Source: Paracoccaceae bacterium (GTDB taxonomy: Bacteria > Pseudomonadota > Alphaproteobacteria > Rhodobacterales > Rhodobacteraceae). From it: a stretch of 64,000 bases of DNA. A model generated the notes under the pieces. It had not been told where the DNA came from. It saw only the letters and a list, made by a program, of their open reading frames with translations, and searched no databases. The stretch spans positions 62,001 to 126,000 of the forward strand of contig JANQRE010000001.1 in NCBI GenBank assembly GCA_028284705.1. The letters are read 5' to 3'. Position numbers and translations under genes: made by a program. Each line of letters starts with the position of its first letter. The stretch's first letter is position 1. Positions 38,609 through 45,835 of this stretch are shown one piece after another.

Positions 38609-38735
38609 GAGAGCCTAAATAAGCGCTCTCGGGCATTTCTCCACCCCTCTTTTCCAACGGGCTGAAACCCGCTTGCACGCACCCGCGCCAGCCCTTAAAC
38701 CCACGACAATTTGCATGGACTTGGGGTTAGAGCCG

Positions 38736-41700
38736 ATGCCGAAAAGAACCGATATCAATTCGATCATGATCATCGGCGCCGGCCCCATCGTCATCGGTCA
38801 AGCCTGCGAGTTCGACTATTCCGGCGCCCAGGCCTGCAAGGCGCTGCGGGAGGAGGGCTACCGCGTCATCCTCGTCAATTCGAACCCGGCCACGATCATG
38901 ACCGACCCGGGCCTCGCCGACGCCACATATATCGAACCGATCACGCCGGAGATCGTCGCCAAGATCATCGAAAAAGAACGCCCCGACGCGCTTTTGCCGA
39001 CCATGGGTGGCCAGACCGGCCTCAACACCTCCCTAGCCCTGGAAGAAATGGGCGTGCTTGAGAAATTTGGCGTCGAGATGATCGGTGCCAAGCGCGACGC
39101 CATCGAGATGGCCGAGGACCGCAAACTGTTCCGCGAGGCCATGGAACGGCTCGGTCTCGAAAACCCCAAAGCCACCATCGCCAACACGATGGAGGAGTGC
39201 ATGGCCGCGCTCGAACATGTGGGCCTGCCTGCCATCATCCGCCCTGCCTTTACGCTGGGCGGCACCGGTGGTGGTGTCGCGTACAACCGCGAAGACTACG
39301 AAAACATTTGTAAATCCGGCCTCGATGCCTCACCGGTCAGCCAGATCCTGATCGACGAGAGCCTGCTCGGCTGGAAAGAATACGAGATGGAGGTCGTGCG
39401 CGACAAGGCCGACAACGCCATCATCGTGTGCTCCATCGAAAACGTCGATCCGATGGGCGTGCATACGGGCGACTCGATCACCGTGGCCCCGGCGCTGACC
39501 CTCACGGACAAGGAATACCAGATCATGCGCAACGGCTCGATCGCCGTGTTGCGCGAGATCGGGGTGGAGACCGGCGGCTCGAATGTACAATGGGCGATCA
39601 ATCCCGCCGATGGGCGCATGGTGGTGATCGAGATGAACCCGCGCGTCTCCCGCTCCTCCGCTCTGGCCTCCAAGGCCACCGGTTTCCCGATCGCCAAGAT
39701 CGCCGCGAAACTCGCGGTCGGCTACACGCTCGACGAACTGGACAACGACATCACCAAGGTCACGCCCGCCAGCTTCGAGCCGACCATCGATTATGTCGTC
39801 ACCAAAATCCCGAAATTCGCCTTCGAGAAATTCCCCGGCTCCGAGCCCTTCCTCACCACCGCGATGAAATCCGTCGGCGAGGCGATGTCCATCGGTCGCA
39901 CGATCCACGAGTCGATGCAAAAGGCGCTGGCCTCCATGGAATCGGGCCTCACCGGGTTTGACGAGGTCGACCTGCCTGGCATGCCCGGCGTCGATGCGGT
40001 GCAATGGCAGGACACCGAGGATGACATCATCCCGCGCATCGTGGTGGGCCGCGATGCCACCGCGCAGGAGGCCATCGACAAGACCCTCACCCGCGAGCTC
40101 GCCCAGCAGACCCCCGACCGTCTGCGCGTCATCGCCCACGCTATGCGCTTCGGCTTCACCAATGACGAGATTAACCAGATCACGAGGTTCGACCCCTGGT
40201 TCCTCGCCCGCATCCGCGAGATTGTCGCCCGCGAGGCCGAGATCGCCCGCGACGGCCTGCCGCTCACCGAGGATGCCCTCCGCGATCTCAAAATGATGGG
40301 CTTCACCGATGCCCGCCTCGCCCATCTCACCGGCCGCAACGAGGCCGATGTGCGCAAAGCCCGCCAGAACCTCGGCGTCACCGCGGTCTTCAAACGCATC
40401 GACACTTGCGCCGCCGAGTTCGAGGCCCAGACGCCCTACATGTATTCCACCTACGAGGCCCCGATGATGGGCGAGGTCGAGTGCGAGGCCCGGCCCTCAG
40501 ACGCCAAAAAAGTCGTCATCCTCGGCGGCGGCCCCAACCGCATCGGCCAGGGGATCGAGTTCGACTATTGCTGCTGCCACGCCTGTTTCGCGCTCACCGA
40601 TGCGGGTTACGAGACCATAATGGTCAACTGCAACCCCGAGACCGTCTCCACCGACTACGACACCTCCGACCGCCTCTATTTCGAGCCGCTCACCTTCGAG
40701 CACGTCATGGAAATCCTCCGCGTCGAGCAGCAAAACGGCGCGCTCCACGGCGTTATCGTCCAGTTCGGCGGCCAGACGCCCCTGAAACTCGCCAACGCGC
40801 TCGAAGAGGCCGGGATCCCCATCCTCGGCACCTCCCCCGACGCCATCGATCTCGCCGAAGATCGCGAGCGCTTTCAGCAACTGGTCCAGCAACTCAACCT
40901 CAAGCAGCCCAAAAACGGCATCGCCCACACCGACGCCCAGGCCATGGAGATCGCCCAGGACATCGGCTTCCCCCTCGTCATCCGCCCGTCTTACGTGCTC
41001 GGCGGTCGCGCCATGGAGATCGTGCGCGACCAGGCCCAGCTCGAACGCTATATCTCCGAGGCCGTCGTCGTCTCCGGCGACAGCCCCGTGCTGCTCGACA
41101 GCTACCTCTCGGGTGCTGTCGAACTCGATGTCGACGCGCTCTGCGACGGCACGCAAGTCCACGTCTCCGGCATCATGCAGCATATCGAGGAGGCCGGCGT
41201 GCATTCCGGCGACAGCGCCTGTTCCCTGCCCCCCTACTCTCTCAGCACGGACACGATCACCGAAATCCGCCGCCAGACCGAGGCGCTCGCAAAAGCCCTC
41301 AACGTCGTCGGCCTCATGAACGTGCAATTCGCGGTCAAGGACGCAGAAATCTACCTCATCGAGGTCAACCCGCGCGCCTCCCGCACCGTCCCCTTCGTCG
41401 CCAAGGCCGTAAACTCGCCCATCGCCTCCATCGCCGCGCAGATCATGGCCGGCGCCAAGCTCTCCGACTTCGACCTCACCGACCCGATGATCGACACCTA
41501 CGCGGTGAAAGAGGCCGTGCTCCCCTTCGCCCGCTTCCCCGGCGTCGACACGATCCTCGGCCCCGAGATGCGCTCCACCGGAGAGGTCATGGGCTCCGAC
41601 GCCGATTTCCACCGCGCTTTCCTCAAGGCCCAGATGGGCGCCGGTGTCGCCTTCCCCGAAGACGGCAAAGGCAAGGTCTTCCTCTCCATCCGGAACGAGG

Positions 41701-42056
41701 ACAAGACGCCGACCATGCTCGAGGCCGCGCAAACCGTCGCGGCGCTCGGCCACAAGCTCATCGCCACGCGCGGCACCGCCAAATGGCTCTCCGAGCACGG
41801 GCTCGATTGCGAGACCGTCAACAAGGTCTATGAGGGTCGGCCGGATGTGACCGACCAGCTCAAGGACGGTCTGATTTCCCTGATCTTCAACACCACCGAG
41901 GGCGCTCAGGCCATCGAGGACAGCAAGTCCATCCGCTCCATCGCCCTCTACGACAAAATCCCCTACTACACGACCGCCGCCGGCTCCCACGCCGCGGCGC
42001 TTGCGATGAAGGCCCGGGTTGAAGGGGATGTCGGGGTTATGGCGTTGCAGGGATGA
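38736..42056 (+). CDS. carB: Carbamoyl-phosphate synthase large subunit
   Basis: The 1106-residue enzyme makes carbamoyl phosphate from bicarbonate, ammonia and two ATP, feeding pyrimidine and arginine synthesis. Two homologous halves are visible: each has an ATP-grasp domain, marked by [17 protein letters not shown] and [17 protein letters not shown]. The C-terminal MGS-type allosteric domain has [13 protein letters not shown] and [16 protein letters not shown]. The start MPKRTDINS at 38736 matches family convention. carA is not in the window. The gene ends directly against the convergent accessory gene. Confidence 0.97.
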
Positions 42057-43088
42057 TCAAATCGAGTTCATCGCTTTCTCGAGCGTCTTTGTCGTGTCAA
42101 AATCCTCGAGTTTTTGAATACACTGCTGCGCACGTTCTCGAGCAAAATTCGAAGCGTGCTGATCAGTCATCGCATTGACCGCAAGTCGAAGCACCGCTTC
42201 CCTCTCTTCATCCGTGAATTTCTCGATCTCAAAAACATAGGCCCGTTGTTCGGCTTCTGGCTTTCCAAGCATACAAGAGACAATTAGGTCAAAAACATAT
42301 GGCAGCTCTGGCAGGTTCAAGTTCCGTGCGGCGTCAGCGTAATTGTTGTACCTAGCTCTTAGCTTATTCCAATCTTGAAGCAGCTTATCGTCGCTTACGC
42401 CTTCCGGATCGAAATTTGCAACAATCAGTTCTCGACCGAGCCCGACGACCATAGAAAAAACAGTCTCCTGTTTTTCAAGCATCAAATCGCCAAATCCTTG
42501 CTCCAATACGGCGACCAAATCGTTGCGTTCCGCCTGAACAAAAGCGTCTATCACACCCTCAAGTACCGGGGTGAAATCTGCGAATTGAGTATAGTGCCGA
42601 TCATGTGCAAATGGCGTTATTAAATCTAAAAGCGCCTTCGCTTGACCTTCGCTAAAATGGCGATTGTCATCTATCTCTTGGGTCATCGCGCTAATCGTCA
42701 ATAGCGCTCGGCTGTCACTCCAGGACCTCTTGGCTTGGCGAGTGTTCTCGGCGACAAAGCTATTCAGTGAATTCTCGATTGTCGTTTGTGCCTCTTGCAC
42801 GATGGTTGGTATTTCGTTCCTGACCGTATCTTGCGCGGCCTCGATGGCCGCCAACCGCGCAGACTCCTGTAGCGAGCCTGAAAAAAGCGTCGCTACCCCG
42901 GTCAACCCAGTAACAATCAATGCACCCCCAACGGTGAGAAATACCGCATTGCGTTGCCTCATCGTCGCAGCGTTGCGGTCGATCTTTTCAATCGCGCTGT
43001 CCGCGACAGAGCTCGACAACATTTCCAAGAAAAATTGATTGTCAGACGCAAACTTGTGAAAATCTGACTTTGTCTCCGTATCGCTCAT
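42057..43088 (-). CDS. Low-GC single-span membrane protein of unknown function
   Basis: The 343-residue protein has one membrane span (NAVFLTVGGALIVTGLTGVATLFSG, about residues 46-70) after a charged N-terminus (KIDRNAATMRQR). A long helical, soluble C-terminal part follows. I recognise no family. The coding sequence is clearly poorer in GC and less biased in codon use than its neighbours, which suggests acquisition. GGAG lies seven bases before ATG 43088. It directly abuts the carB stop and opens the carB-tdk island. Confidence 0.75.
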   Translation of the reverse strand: MSDTETKSDFHKFASDNQFFLEMLSSSVADSAIEKIDRNAATMRQRNAVFLTVGGALIVTGLTGVATLFSGSLQESARLAAIEAAQDTVRNEIPTIVQEAQTTIENSLNSFVAENTRQAKRSWSDSRALLTISAMTQEIDDNRHFSEGQAKALLDLITPFAHDRHYTQFADFTPVLEGVIDAFVQAERNDLVAVLEQGFGDLMLEKQETVFSMVVGLGRELIVANFDPEGVSDDKLLQDWNKLRARYNNYADAARNLNLPELPYVFDLIVSCMLGKPEAEQRAYVFEIEKFTDEEREAVLRLAVNAMTDQHASNFARERAQQCIQKLEDFDTTKTLEKAMNSI

Positions 43089-43311
43089 TTTCGTGCTCCA
43101 CAAAAATTGATTTTGAGAACACCCTATTTTTCTTGCGTTATTCGAGCGTGAAATTAGTGTGAAGGGTTCGCGAATACGCCAGGAGTCTCACAAAGCAAGC
43201 CATCAATTTGCTGCCCCTAGGAACGTTTTTCTCGGCGACTTCAGCGCTTCTGCCGATCCGCGTCCTCTTGCCGTTGGGCTTCGCGCGCCGACTCGCAATC
43301 AGCGAGCCATA

Positions 43312-43339
43312 GTTTGGTGCGTGAGATCACGCACCAAAC
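43312..43339. repeat. Perfect 28-base palindrome
   Basis: Two 13-base arms (GTTTGGTGCGTGA and its complement) are separated by two bases. The strength and perfection suggest a mobile palindromic element or a protein-binding site. Confidence 0.7.
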
Positions 43340-43349
43340 CGCAGCAAGC

Positions 43350-43376
43350 GTAGGGTGGGCAATTCTGCCCACCATC
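43350..43376. repeat. Dispersed palindromic repeat, second copy
   Basis: GTAGGGTGGGCA and TGCCCACCATC flank a short AATTC-type loop. The arms are the same as those of the copy inside valS at 5534-5564. Confidence 0.7.
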
Positions 43377-43584
43377 TTCCAAAGCGCAATCGCCGGACCG
43401 TGGGATGGCGACAGAACGGACATGCTGCAGCGGTTTATCGCGCCACGTTATAAATAGCTCAAAGCGACGCGCCAACGTCACCAAATCGCCAGCCCGTGGG
43501 GGCGGTCTGGCGATTGCGCGGCGGCTTCGCCTTGATTCCGCGCTTGGGCGCAAAGCACCAAGGCCGGATATATACCTGTGTCTA

Positions 43585-43887
43585 CTACTCCGATATCTCA
43601 CCGTCTTGAGAAACTGACAGAGACATACCGCTCATTAATTCGGACTCGCTCATGGAGCGCCCAGTTTTCACGAGCTGCTTTTCGTCAATCGTCCACCCAT
43701 CAACCCAGTCTGAGCACCGGGCATCCCGAAAAACACTCACGGCGTAGCTCCAACCATGTTCTTCGGTGAATGACATGCCATTCACTACCCCGAACATGCG
43801 ATCAATCTCCGCGTAGTCTTCGGTGGTACTAATGATCTGCACAACTTCGTAAAAGTCGAACATCGGGGGCGGCATTTTCTTCGACAT
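43585..43887 (-). CDS. Imm31-like immunity protein, orphan
   Basis: The 100-residue protein contains FYEVVQIISTTEDYAEIDRM and GWSYAVSVFRD, which resemble the Imm31 family of polymorphic-toxin immunity proteins. No cognate toxin, Rhs or secretion gene is nearby, so it is an orphan. AGGAGG lies nine bases before the ATG. The start lies inside the 3' end of the BrnA-like ORF, an overlap of 103 bases in another frame. It may protect against toxins of neighbouring cells. The family call is from pattern memory and should be searched. Confidence 0.6.
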   Translation of the reverse strand: MSKKMPPPMFDFYEVVQIISTTEDYAEIDRMFGVVNGMSFTEEHGWSYAVSVFRDARCSDWVDGWTIDEKQLVKTGRSMSESELMSGMSLSVSQDGEISE

Positions 43888-44489
43888 GTGAATACCCCTC
43901 CTCTGATCGTGTCGCCATTTTCAAGCGTAACGCGGGCTTTCCACAGTTGCGAGTGCTGCACCACCCGCTTGGCCGCCTCCAACTGCCCCGTCTTGCGGGC
44001 TTCCATCTCCGCCATGACCTGCGCTTCGATCTCGCGCTCGAACTCCAACTGCGAGCGGCTTTTTCGCAGGGCCGACTCCTTCTCCTGCCGGGCCAGTGTC
44101 ACGGACAAGCGCTCAAGTTCGGCATCGGCATGGTTGCGGCCCCGGTCGGCATCATCCACCCAGCGCTCGAACCGCGATGCATCGACCACCACGCCCGACA
44201 GCCGGGAATGCATATAGGCCCGCAGCACGTCGTTCATCCGGGTCAGGTAGCCGCGCCCCGTCACCCGAAAAAATTTCAGCACGTCTTCATCCACCCGCAT
44301 TGTGATCTTTTTCTTCTTCGGCTGATCCGGGCGGGTCGCGATCTCCTCCCATTCATCGGGCAGGGCCTCGCTGTCGTGAAACGCCCGGTGCAGATCATAT
44401 TCCAGCCGCTTGAGCACATCCGTCATCAGGTAATGCTCCAGCCGCTGGCGCTTGGTCATGTTTTCGCGGACGGTCGGTTGCTGTTCCAT
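43785..44489 (-). CDS. BrnA-like ribbon-helix-helix protein, possibly with a foreign C-terminus
   Basis: Residues about 58-97 (KKKITMRVDEDVLKFFRVTG then GYLTRMNDVLRAYMHSRL) match the BrnA/CopG antitoxin type of DNA-binding domain. A charged helical section follows. The last about 33 residues (after IRGGVFTCRRKCRPRC) run across the start of the Imm31-like gene in a different frame and look unlike a conserved domain, so the gene may have lost its original end. No BrnT toxin partner is seen. It may be a stand-alone regulator. Confidence 0.6.
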   Translation of the reverse strand: MEQQPTVRENMTKRQRLEHYLMTDVLKRLEYDLHRAFHDSEALPDEWEEIATRPDQPKKKKITMRVDEDVLKFFRVTGRGYLTRMNDVLRAYMHSRLSGVVVDASRFERWVDDADRGRNHADAELERLSVTLARQEKESALRKSRSQLEFEREIEAQVMAEMEARKTGQLEAAKRVVQHSQLWKARVTLENGDTIRGGVFTCRRKCRPRCSTFTKLCRSLVPPKTTRRLIACSG

Positions 44490-44569
44490 CTCTCACCCCG
44501 AATTCAAATCACGGGGGCGGAGACTGCCGTCAAAAGGTTAACAAAATTCGGAGGCACCGGTCGCTACAC

Positions 44570-44613
44570 GTGTCGGGACGGATGCCATACGGATGCTGTA
44601 CGGAAACCAGACG
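44570..44613. repeat. Second dispersed repeat, island copy
   Basis: GTGTCGGGACGGATG and CTGTACGGAAACCAGACG, with an 11-base insertion between them, match the in-frame copy in valS at 6528-6560. It lies in the non-coding gap between the BrnA-like and CII-like genes. Confidence 0.7.
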
Positions 44614-44642
44614 GCAATTTCTGGCCGTCGGAGAAAGGGTAA

Positions 44643-45110
44643 TCACCCGCCGGGATGGGCGGTTTCCTCTTCCAGATGCAGTTTCATTTCGACCAGAACT
44701 TTCTGCAGCGCCAGCGTCTCCTGCAGCATCCGTTTGGCCTCATTCGCGGTGATGACGCCGTCGTCGATCGACTGGTTATATTCGCTCATCAGCATCGCAA
44801 ATCTCTGCGCCAGCGCGACCACATTCGTGTTCACCGAAGAGCGTTCCTCGTTCTGGCGCTCTTCGTTGTAACTAATTGAAATCCCGTTCATTTCTGCAAG
44901 AGCAGAGGTGACATGCGGGTAGCTGGAGGCGGCCTCCAAAGCGGCCACGGCATCAATGGGCATGAAGCGGTCGGCATGTTCATCGGCATCGGAATAATAG
45001 CGCCCCAGCGTGGCCTTGGACCGCCCCGTCAGCTCGCAAGCCGGCTCCACGCCCACATCCTTCACCAGCGCTTCGGTGTGTTTCTTAAGATACCGATATT
45101 TCACGCTCAT
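44643..45110 (-). CDS. CII-like phage-type regulatory protein
   Basis: The 155-residue protein has a likely helix-turn-helix near the N-terminus (VEPACELTGRSKATLGRYY) followed by a helical coiled-coil-like C-terminus (ANEAKRMLQETLALQKVLVEMKLHLEEE). It resembles the phage regulatory CII/CP76 type and may be a remnant of a prophage or a domesticated regulator. The start MSVKYRYL at 45110 is chosen because the predicted domain begins there; the track ORF adds 14 residues. It is divergent from tdk. Confidence 0.6.
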   Translation of the reverse strand: MSVKYRYLKKHTEALVKDVGVEPACELTGRSKATLGRYYSDADEHADRFMPIDAVAALEAASSYPHVTSALAEMNGISISYNEERQNEERSSVNTNVVALAQRFAMLMSEYNQSIDDGVITANEAKRMLQETLALQKVLVEMKLHLEEETAHPGG

Positions 45111-45253: not shown

Positions 45254-45835
45254 ATGGCCAAGCTCTATTTCCACTACTCCACGATGAATGCCGGCAAATC
45301 GACGCTGCTGTTGCAAGCGGCGCATAACTACCAGGAAATGGGCATGGAGACCTATCTTCTGACGGCCAATTTCGATGACCGCGCCGGAGAGGGACAGATC
45401 GGGTCACGCATCGGCATCGCACGCTCGGCGGACACTTACGGCAACACCACCGATCTCTATGCTATGATCGCCGCACGTCTGGACAAAGGCCCGGTGGCAT
45501 GTGTCATGGTCGATGAAGCACAGTGGCTCTCGAAGACCCAAGTCTGGCAACTGGCCCGCGCGGTGGATGATTTGAGCGTGCCGGTGATGTGTTATGGGCT
45601 GAGGGTCGATTTTCGGGGCGAGTTGTTCCCCGGTTCGGCAACACTCTTGGCCTTGGCCGATGAAATGCGCGAGGTCCGAACAATCTGCCATTGCGGAAAG
45701 AAAGCGACGATGGTGATCCGCAAAGGGCCGGACGGGAAAGCACTGACCGATGGCGACCAGGTGCAGGTGGGTGGAAACGAGACGTACCTCTCACTCTGCC
45801 GGAAGCACTGGCGCGAAGCAGTCGGAGACCGCTAG
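45254..45835 (+). CDS. tdk: Thymidine kinase
   Basis: The 193-residue type II thymidine kinase phosphorylates thymidine for salvage. It has the P-loop STMNAGKSTLL, the DEAQW segment (VMVDEAQWLSK) and the zinc-binding ICHCGKKATMV, with a late cysteine (LSLCRKHW). The start MAKLYFHYST at 45254 agrees with the family. It closes the accessory island and converges with the hydroxyacid dehydrogenase gene with a short overlap. Confidence 0.95.
   Translation: MAKLYFHYSTMNAGKSTLLLQAAHNYQEMGMETYLLTANFDDRAGEGQIGSRIGIARSADTYGNTTDLYAMIAARLDKGPVACVMVDEAQWLSKTQVWQLARAVDDLSVPVMCYGLRVDFRGELFPGSATLLALADEMREVRTICHCGKKATMVIRKGPDGKALTDGDQVQVGGNETYLSLCRKHWREAVGDR

Follow-up and report, generated by a model that had tools for sequence, protein, structure and literature searches.

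What occupies the interval between carB and tdk in this Paracoccaceae genome: the remains of a single insertion, or genes of separate origin? We examined this question in a stretch of 64,000 nucleotides (the window) from a 4.04-Mb genome that is closest, among named organisms, to Litoreibacter, and compared the locus across 21 Litoreibacter genomes. A sequence-only reading of the window had listed a low-GC membrane protein, a perfect palindrome, dispersed repeats, an orphan Imm31-like gene and two putative regulators between these housekeeping genes, and had proposed a decayed mobile or defence-related insertion lacking an integrase. The listed features are real and lie together between carB and tdk, which enclose four minus-strand ORFs (the 342- to 348-aa ORF and the Imm31, BrnA-like and CII/CP76-like genes; Table 1). 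No integrase was recognized in the interval, as that reading had stated, and no transposase either; the small ORFs tested contained no further Pfam family, save for one spurious weak match. The features have, however, two origins: some are resident genes, and others are strain-specific cargo.

Table 1. Features of the carB-tdk interval and its flanks, in window coordinates
Feature	Position	Strand	Evidence or description
carB, carbamoyl-phosphate synthase large subunit	38673..42056	+	Pfam CPSase_L_D1/D2/D3, MGS
G-run motif, last 14 carB codons	42012..42053	+	Four runs of at least 3 G; atypical GGG, GTT, TTG
342-aa ORFan (342-348 aa), strain-specific cargo	42057..43085 (or 43103)	-	GC 0.49, one hydrophobic segment
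Palindrome, REP-like	43312..43339	.	13-nt arms, 2-nt centre
Second REP-like hairpin, GTAG-GGTGGGCAATTCTGCCCACC	43350..43376	.	Sequence; short matches elsewhere in genome
REPIN-like dispersed repeat	43384..43543	.	Two inverted REP-like arms around variable spacer
Imm31-family gene, strain-specific cargo	43585..43887	-	PF15591, E = 8.9e-9, above cut-off
BrnA-antitoxin-like gene, long-term slot resident	43785..44489	-	PF14384 (BrnA_antitoxin), E = 3.7e-16
CII/CP76-like regulator, core gene adjoining tdk	44643..45110	-	PF06892 (Phage_CP76), alignment A1
tdk, thymidine kinase, right flank	45254..45835	+	PF00265, E = 8e-48

Resident genes and strain-specific cargo

The assignment of a CII-like regulator was borne out by a Phage_CP76 match of 26.1 bits (cut-off, 26). 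This gene adjoins tdk in all same-genus loci examined but one (G010), with 68 to 83% identity, and is 61 to 71% identical in three other genera; mean column identity across the 16 sequences of alignment A1 was 77%. In a survey of 80 further CII-like loci, the named members of which all belong to the Rhodobacterales/Roseobacter group and the rest to MAGs, tdk was adjacent in most. Because synteny with tdk extends across the family, we consider the CII-like gene a core gene, its phage-like domain notwithstanding; its position by tdk is not a prophage setting.

The BrnA-like gene, also identified correctly by the earlier reading, occurs at the same position in six other Litoreibacter genomes (approximately 40 to 52% identity) and has long resided in the slot, outside the insertion. 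Its ORF of 234 aa requires a correction, in that it overlaps the Imm31 ORF by approximately 100 nt: its last ~34 codons come from reading through the Imm31 region in a different frame, and the conserved part of the protein spans residues ~1 to 115, with the 3' end of the gene running into Imm31. No BrnT was found among the small ORFs scanned, the neighbours of the BrnA-like gene being the CII-like and Imm31 genes. A third resident is a small lipoprotein of ~100 aa (LPFFG...YSVP), which is intact in many Litoreibacter genomes, degraded in some (e.g., G015, G007, and G002) and absent from the source genome. At four loci (L056, L057, L061, and L064), the lipoprotein gene is truncated or internally deleted.

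In the source genome, the slot is occupied by the 342-aa single-pass membrane ORFan. Its low GC content, noted from sequence alone, compares with 0.57 to 0.65 in all other window ORFs of at least 150 aa, and its single hydrophobic segment spans residues 47 to 65. The protein is predicted with low confidence to be mostly helical, and the AlphaFold model (pLDDT 50) did not have the quality that a fold search needs. None of 396 other sampled family genomes carries a relative; likewise, no relative was found among 100 related genomes, plasmids, phages, viral contigs, or the PDB, and there was no match to a defence family. From its position, its GC content, and the orphan Imm31 gene nearby, we infer that it is a defence or competition gene. 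The Imm31 gene was similarly isolated, with no other match above the cut-off among 249 family genomes and none in 100 relatives. Neither adjacent ORF has a toxin domain that would pair with it; its neighbours are the BrnA-like gene and the repeats.

The stretch between the 342-aa ORF and Imm31 contains two REP-like hairpins and an inverted REPIN-like pair, and together with Imm31 these repeats stand where the lipoprotein gene is found in many relatives. What had been called a perfect palindrome has two perfect 13-nt arms and forms a perfect hairpin, although the 2-nt centre means that it is not a perfect 28-mer; shuffled sequences gave 0 equivalent matches. The repeats are dispersed, as claimed: positions 43389 to 43543 recur at approximately 7 to 10 further places in the genome (71 to 77% identity), in addition to more partial copies. 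No Rfam RNA family was found in the repeat region. In other species, REP-like hairpins (GGGTGG...CCACCC, some with GTAG) were also observed along the right border of the slot (L057, L059, L064, and L068).

A slot with fixed borders and changing content

Across the genus, the slot lies between carB and tdk on a single contig in 18 of 20 relatives, the exceptions being G005, where a contig break splits the locus, and G020, where carB has moved. In the latter (L253), carB lies elsewhere in the genome, and the order of the CII-like gene, tdk, and pdxB is kept. The left edge of the slot is the carB stop codon, directly past which the sequences become unrelated between genomes (18 same-genus intervals, one of them empty, plus the window); the right border lies just upstream of the lipoprotein promoter. 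Between these borders, nearly every genome carries a different integrase-free cassette of ~0.6 to 1.8 kb, often of defence or toxin-antitoxin type. For example, G001 and G009 share 94% identical DNA to the right of cargo that is itself unrelated (1.8 and 1.3 kb). As a control, the tdk-pdxB interval of the same loci was at most ~360 bp wherever pdxB was found. Because the cassette differs nearly species by species, the odd genes of the window are best regarded as one occupant of a shared slot and not as a one-off, decayed phage insertion.

The occupants are diverse. They comprise XRE and M78 genes (G008); an HNH gene (G016); M78 with PIN DUF4411 (G011); a dCTP-deaminase-type gene (G001, Litoreibacter halocynthiae DSM 29467); DUF6610 with a membrane protein (G013); SEC-C (G007); DUF6615 (G002); a weak AbiJ-like match (G003); DUF4062/PDC-S60 (G009); Xre/MbcA antitoxins (G019 and G014); a C5-methyltransferase (G015); an HTH gene with a partner (G018); ThsB-TIR with a membrane protein (G006); a hydrolase (G017); and an uncharacterized 185-aa gene (G005). 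Some occupants are not defence genes, namely the DUF6778 lipoprotein of G004 and the methyltransferase of G012, and in G010 the slot is empty, with 125 bp from carB to tdk and no CII gene. Matches to the cargo included dCTPase (E = 3.6e-138), MTase_II/DruM (1.6e-137), PDC-S60 (3.7e-33), a CBASS-type HNH (PDC-M68A, 3e-27), RmrA with PIN DUF4411 (4e-18), capP (4.9e-9), and ThsB (1.1e-6; Pfam ThsB_TIR, 6e-15).

The slot is also used outside the genus. Among those of 80 sampled family genomes in which synteny is kept, both empty and occupied slots were found. Directly behind carB, one locus of another genus carries a PARIS-like AriA/AriB pair (L180) and a second, also of another genus, carries a GmrSD-type gene (GmrSD/NsnA) with an HEPN-like partner (L233); further occupants in the family are a TIR-type effector (L163) and SocA/Panacea (SocA_Panacea, L214). 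Within Litoreibacter, 7 of 19 occupied loci had PADLOC matches (E ≤ 1e-5), compared with ~4 of the 42 other window proteins that formed the small control (Fisher p = 0.016). The control count is an estimate: at least 34 families are listed, mostly many E1-E2 models on one protein, and the control matches among those listed also include two mad2 and one DpdF. Two further loci encode antitoxin domains without a PADLOC match. The slot thus has the marks of a hotspot, with the same core flanks, content that differs even between close relatives, and enrichment of known defence genes. In summary, the locus combines variable content, fixed borders, and defence-type cargo with an absence of recombination genes.

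Anomalous codon choice at the carB end

The unusual part of the locus is a codon anomaly at the end of carB. In the window, this end had the highest G4Hunter score of 51 gene ends (synonymous-shuffle p = 0.003), and across the genus loci the 16 highest-scoring of 293 gene ends were all carB, 2 of these 16 entries being labelled False by the motif filter. In the last 14 carB codons of Litoreibacter, GGG makes up 66% of the glycine codons (against 9% over the remainder of carB), GTT 59% of the valine codons (7%), and TTG 85% of the leucine codons (10%), a choice of codons that yields three to five G-tracts. Synonymous shuffles gave p < 0.01 in 16 of 19 genomes, with G004, G010, and G012 failing; by eye, G005 has the motif, and G020, in which carB has moved, is without it. 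Third-position conservation at the carB end was not raised; the anomaly is one of codon choice and not of invariance.

The G-run motif was present in 17 of 17 cassette-type slots and in 0 of 4 others (p = 1.7e-4), a split that is partly post hoc because the cassette-type slot was defined after the data had been seen and because G004 and G012 do have a gene behind carB. The split is not one inherited event, since the four motif-less genomes fall in separate clades, where all but G004 adjoin motif-bearing relatives. In the family as a whole, the link between motif and slot occupancy was not significant (p = 0.18 and 0.11). On the opposite strand, positions 41995 to 42072 are C-rich and G-poor (0.40/0.18), as at Rho sites. 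Strong intrinsic terminators lie directly behind carB in the motif-less genomes G010 and G004 (L051 and L055), and in most motif-bearing genomes no such terminator was found within 160 nt past carB.

We tentatively suggest, although we consider it doubtful, that the last 14 carB codons are a DNA signal that is kept only where the slot is in use and that either promotes exchange or stops antisense transcription. As a promoter of exchange, the sequence may act as a G-quadruplex or a Chi-like site, by analogy with the pilE G4. As an insulator, the Rho-site-like opposite strand may keep antisense transcription from incoming cassettes out of carB; the evidence for this version is no weaker than that for the recombination signal. 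Possibly, the composition of the carB end instead drifted and was carried along with exchange.

Proposed movement of cassettes and comparison with known hotspots

We conclude that the carB-tdk interval is probably a replacement slot for short cassettes, mostly of defence or toxin-antitoxin type, between core genes. One- or two-gene cassettes would enter and leave immediately downstream of the carB stop codon by homologous recombination, presumably through carB on one side and the block of lipoprotein, BrnA-like gene, CII-like gene, and tdk on the other. This route is the most likely one because integrase, transposase, and a duplicated att site are all absent. Against it, the way in which the carB end diverges agrees only weakly with exchange. 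A single past insertion of a prophage or mobile island that then decayed, leaving the CII-like and BrnA-like genes as its remnants, would account for those two domains, the low GC, and the repeats. We consider it highly improbable and reject it: the CII-like gene is a core gene beside tdk family-wide, other species have the BrnA-like gene in this position too, and neither an integrase nor the attachment-site duplication that was looked for was found. The proposal of a decayed insertion thus holds in part: some of the interval is foreign, of defence type, and integrase-free, as the comparison with related genomes that it called for shows, but it is not one decayed mobile element, and relatives share the CII-like and BrnA-like genes but neither the membrane protein nor Imm31.

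It is quite unlikely that the 3' end of carB is instead the att site for an integrase acting in trans, with each cassette bringing fresh terminal codons that carry the G-run motif. The cargo does begin flush at the carB stop, and divergence of the last 13 carB codons tracks that of the gene body only weakly: in distant motif-bearing pairs these codons are more similar than the body (84.0 versus 80.0%), in close pairs they are less similar (88.8 versus 92.5%), and between G001 and G009 identity is 83% over the last 40 carB codons compared with 94 to 96% just before. However, similar decoupling was seen in other carB windows, and the motif was single-copy. Neither a PWM scan covering the window plus every neighbouring locus nor a pattern search in 21 genomes returned a copy other than that in carB; no attR-like second copy was found, and the motif was not found in viral contigs. 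Ordinary local gene turnover with no preferred class, in which defence genes merely mirror their abundance among recently acquired genes, is rather unlikely. It would explain the DUF6778, methyltransferase, and several uncharacterized occupants and the moderate size of the PADLOC enrichment, but many different known defence and toxin-antitoxin types share one slot of ~1 kb, and PARIS-like, GmrSD-type, and TIR genes fill this slot in other genera.

The replacement slot resembles cDHS1 and cDHS2 of Pseudomonas aeruginosa in its variable defence genes, fixed core flanks, nearly constant occupancy, and lack of a single responsible mobile element; for those loci, transduction and homologous recombination via the flanking sequence have been suggested as the means of transfer (PMC10250203). 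The cDHS loci are much longer (median of 26 kb for cDHS1), lie next to tRNA/tmRNA genes, and often contain transposases, whereas the carB slot holds one cassette of ~0.6 to 1.8 kb flush with the carB stop and no recognized recombinase. Hotspots of the Escherichia coli pan-genome are likewise defined by core genes and hold different defence systems in each genome, but these are mostly integrase-bearing mobile islands and are usually empty (median occupancy, 8%) (PMC10121019); the carB slot is ~90% occupied in the genus, with no recognized mobility gene. A cross-bacteria study of gene-transfer hotspots offers a further likeness, rapid accessory turnover confined to few junctions, and its abstract contains no statement on the carB locus or Litoreibacter (PMC5635113). 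In Neisseria gonorrhoeae, a G4 is required for gene conversion at pilE (PMC3547852). The carB G-run sequence similarly adjoins a presumably recombining locus, but it lies inside a coding sequence, is known from sequence alone, and has no known silent copies. Our literature search found no paper naming the carB-tdk locus. The slot is a compact defence hotspot between core genes; loci of this kind are known, but the literature searched describes none in this lineage.

A fixed, short address behind carB means that defence genes of Litoreibacter and its relatives can be collected, one per genome. By position, the 342-aa protein and the DUF6615, DUF6610, and SEC-C genes become candidate anti-phage genes. 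Because the cassettes are small and carry no recognized mobility genes, the slot also offers a clean case for studying how defence genes may move without a mobile element, and the codon anomaly gives a specific sequence with which to ask this. If the carB end is indeed a signal, carB would be a docking gene for immune cassettes, with a landing or an insulation signal written into its own sequence.
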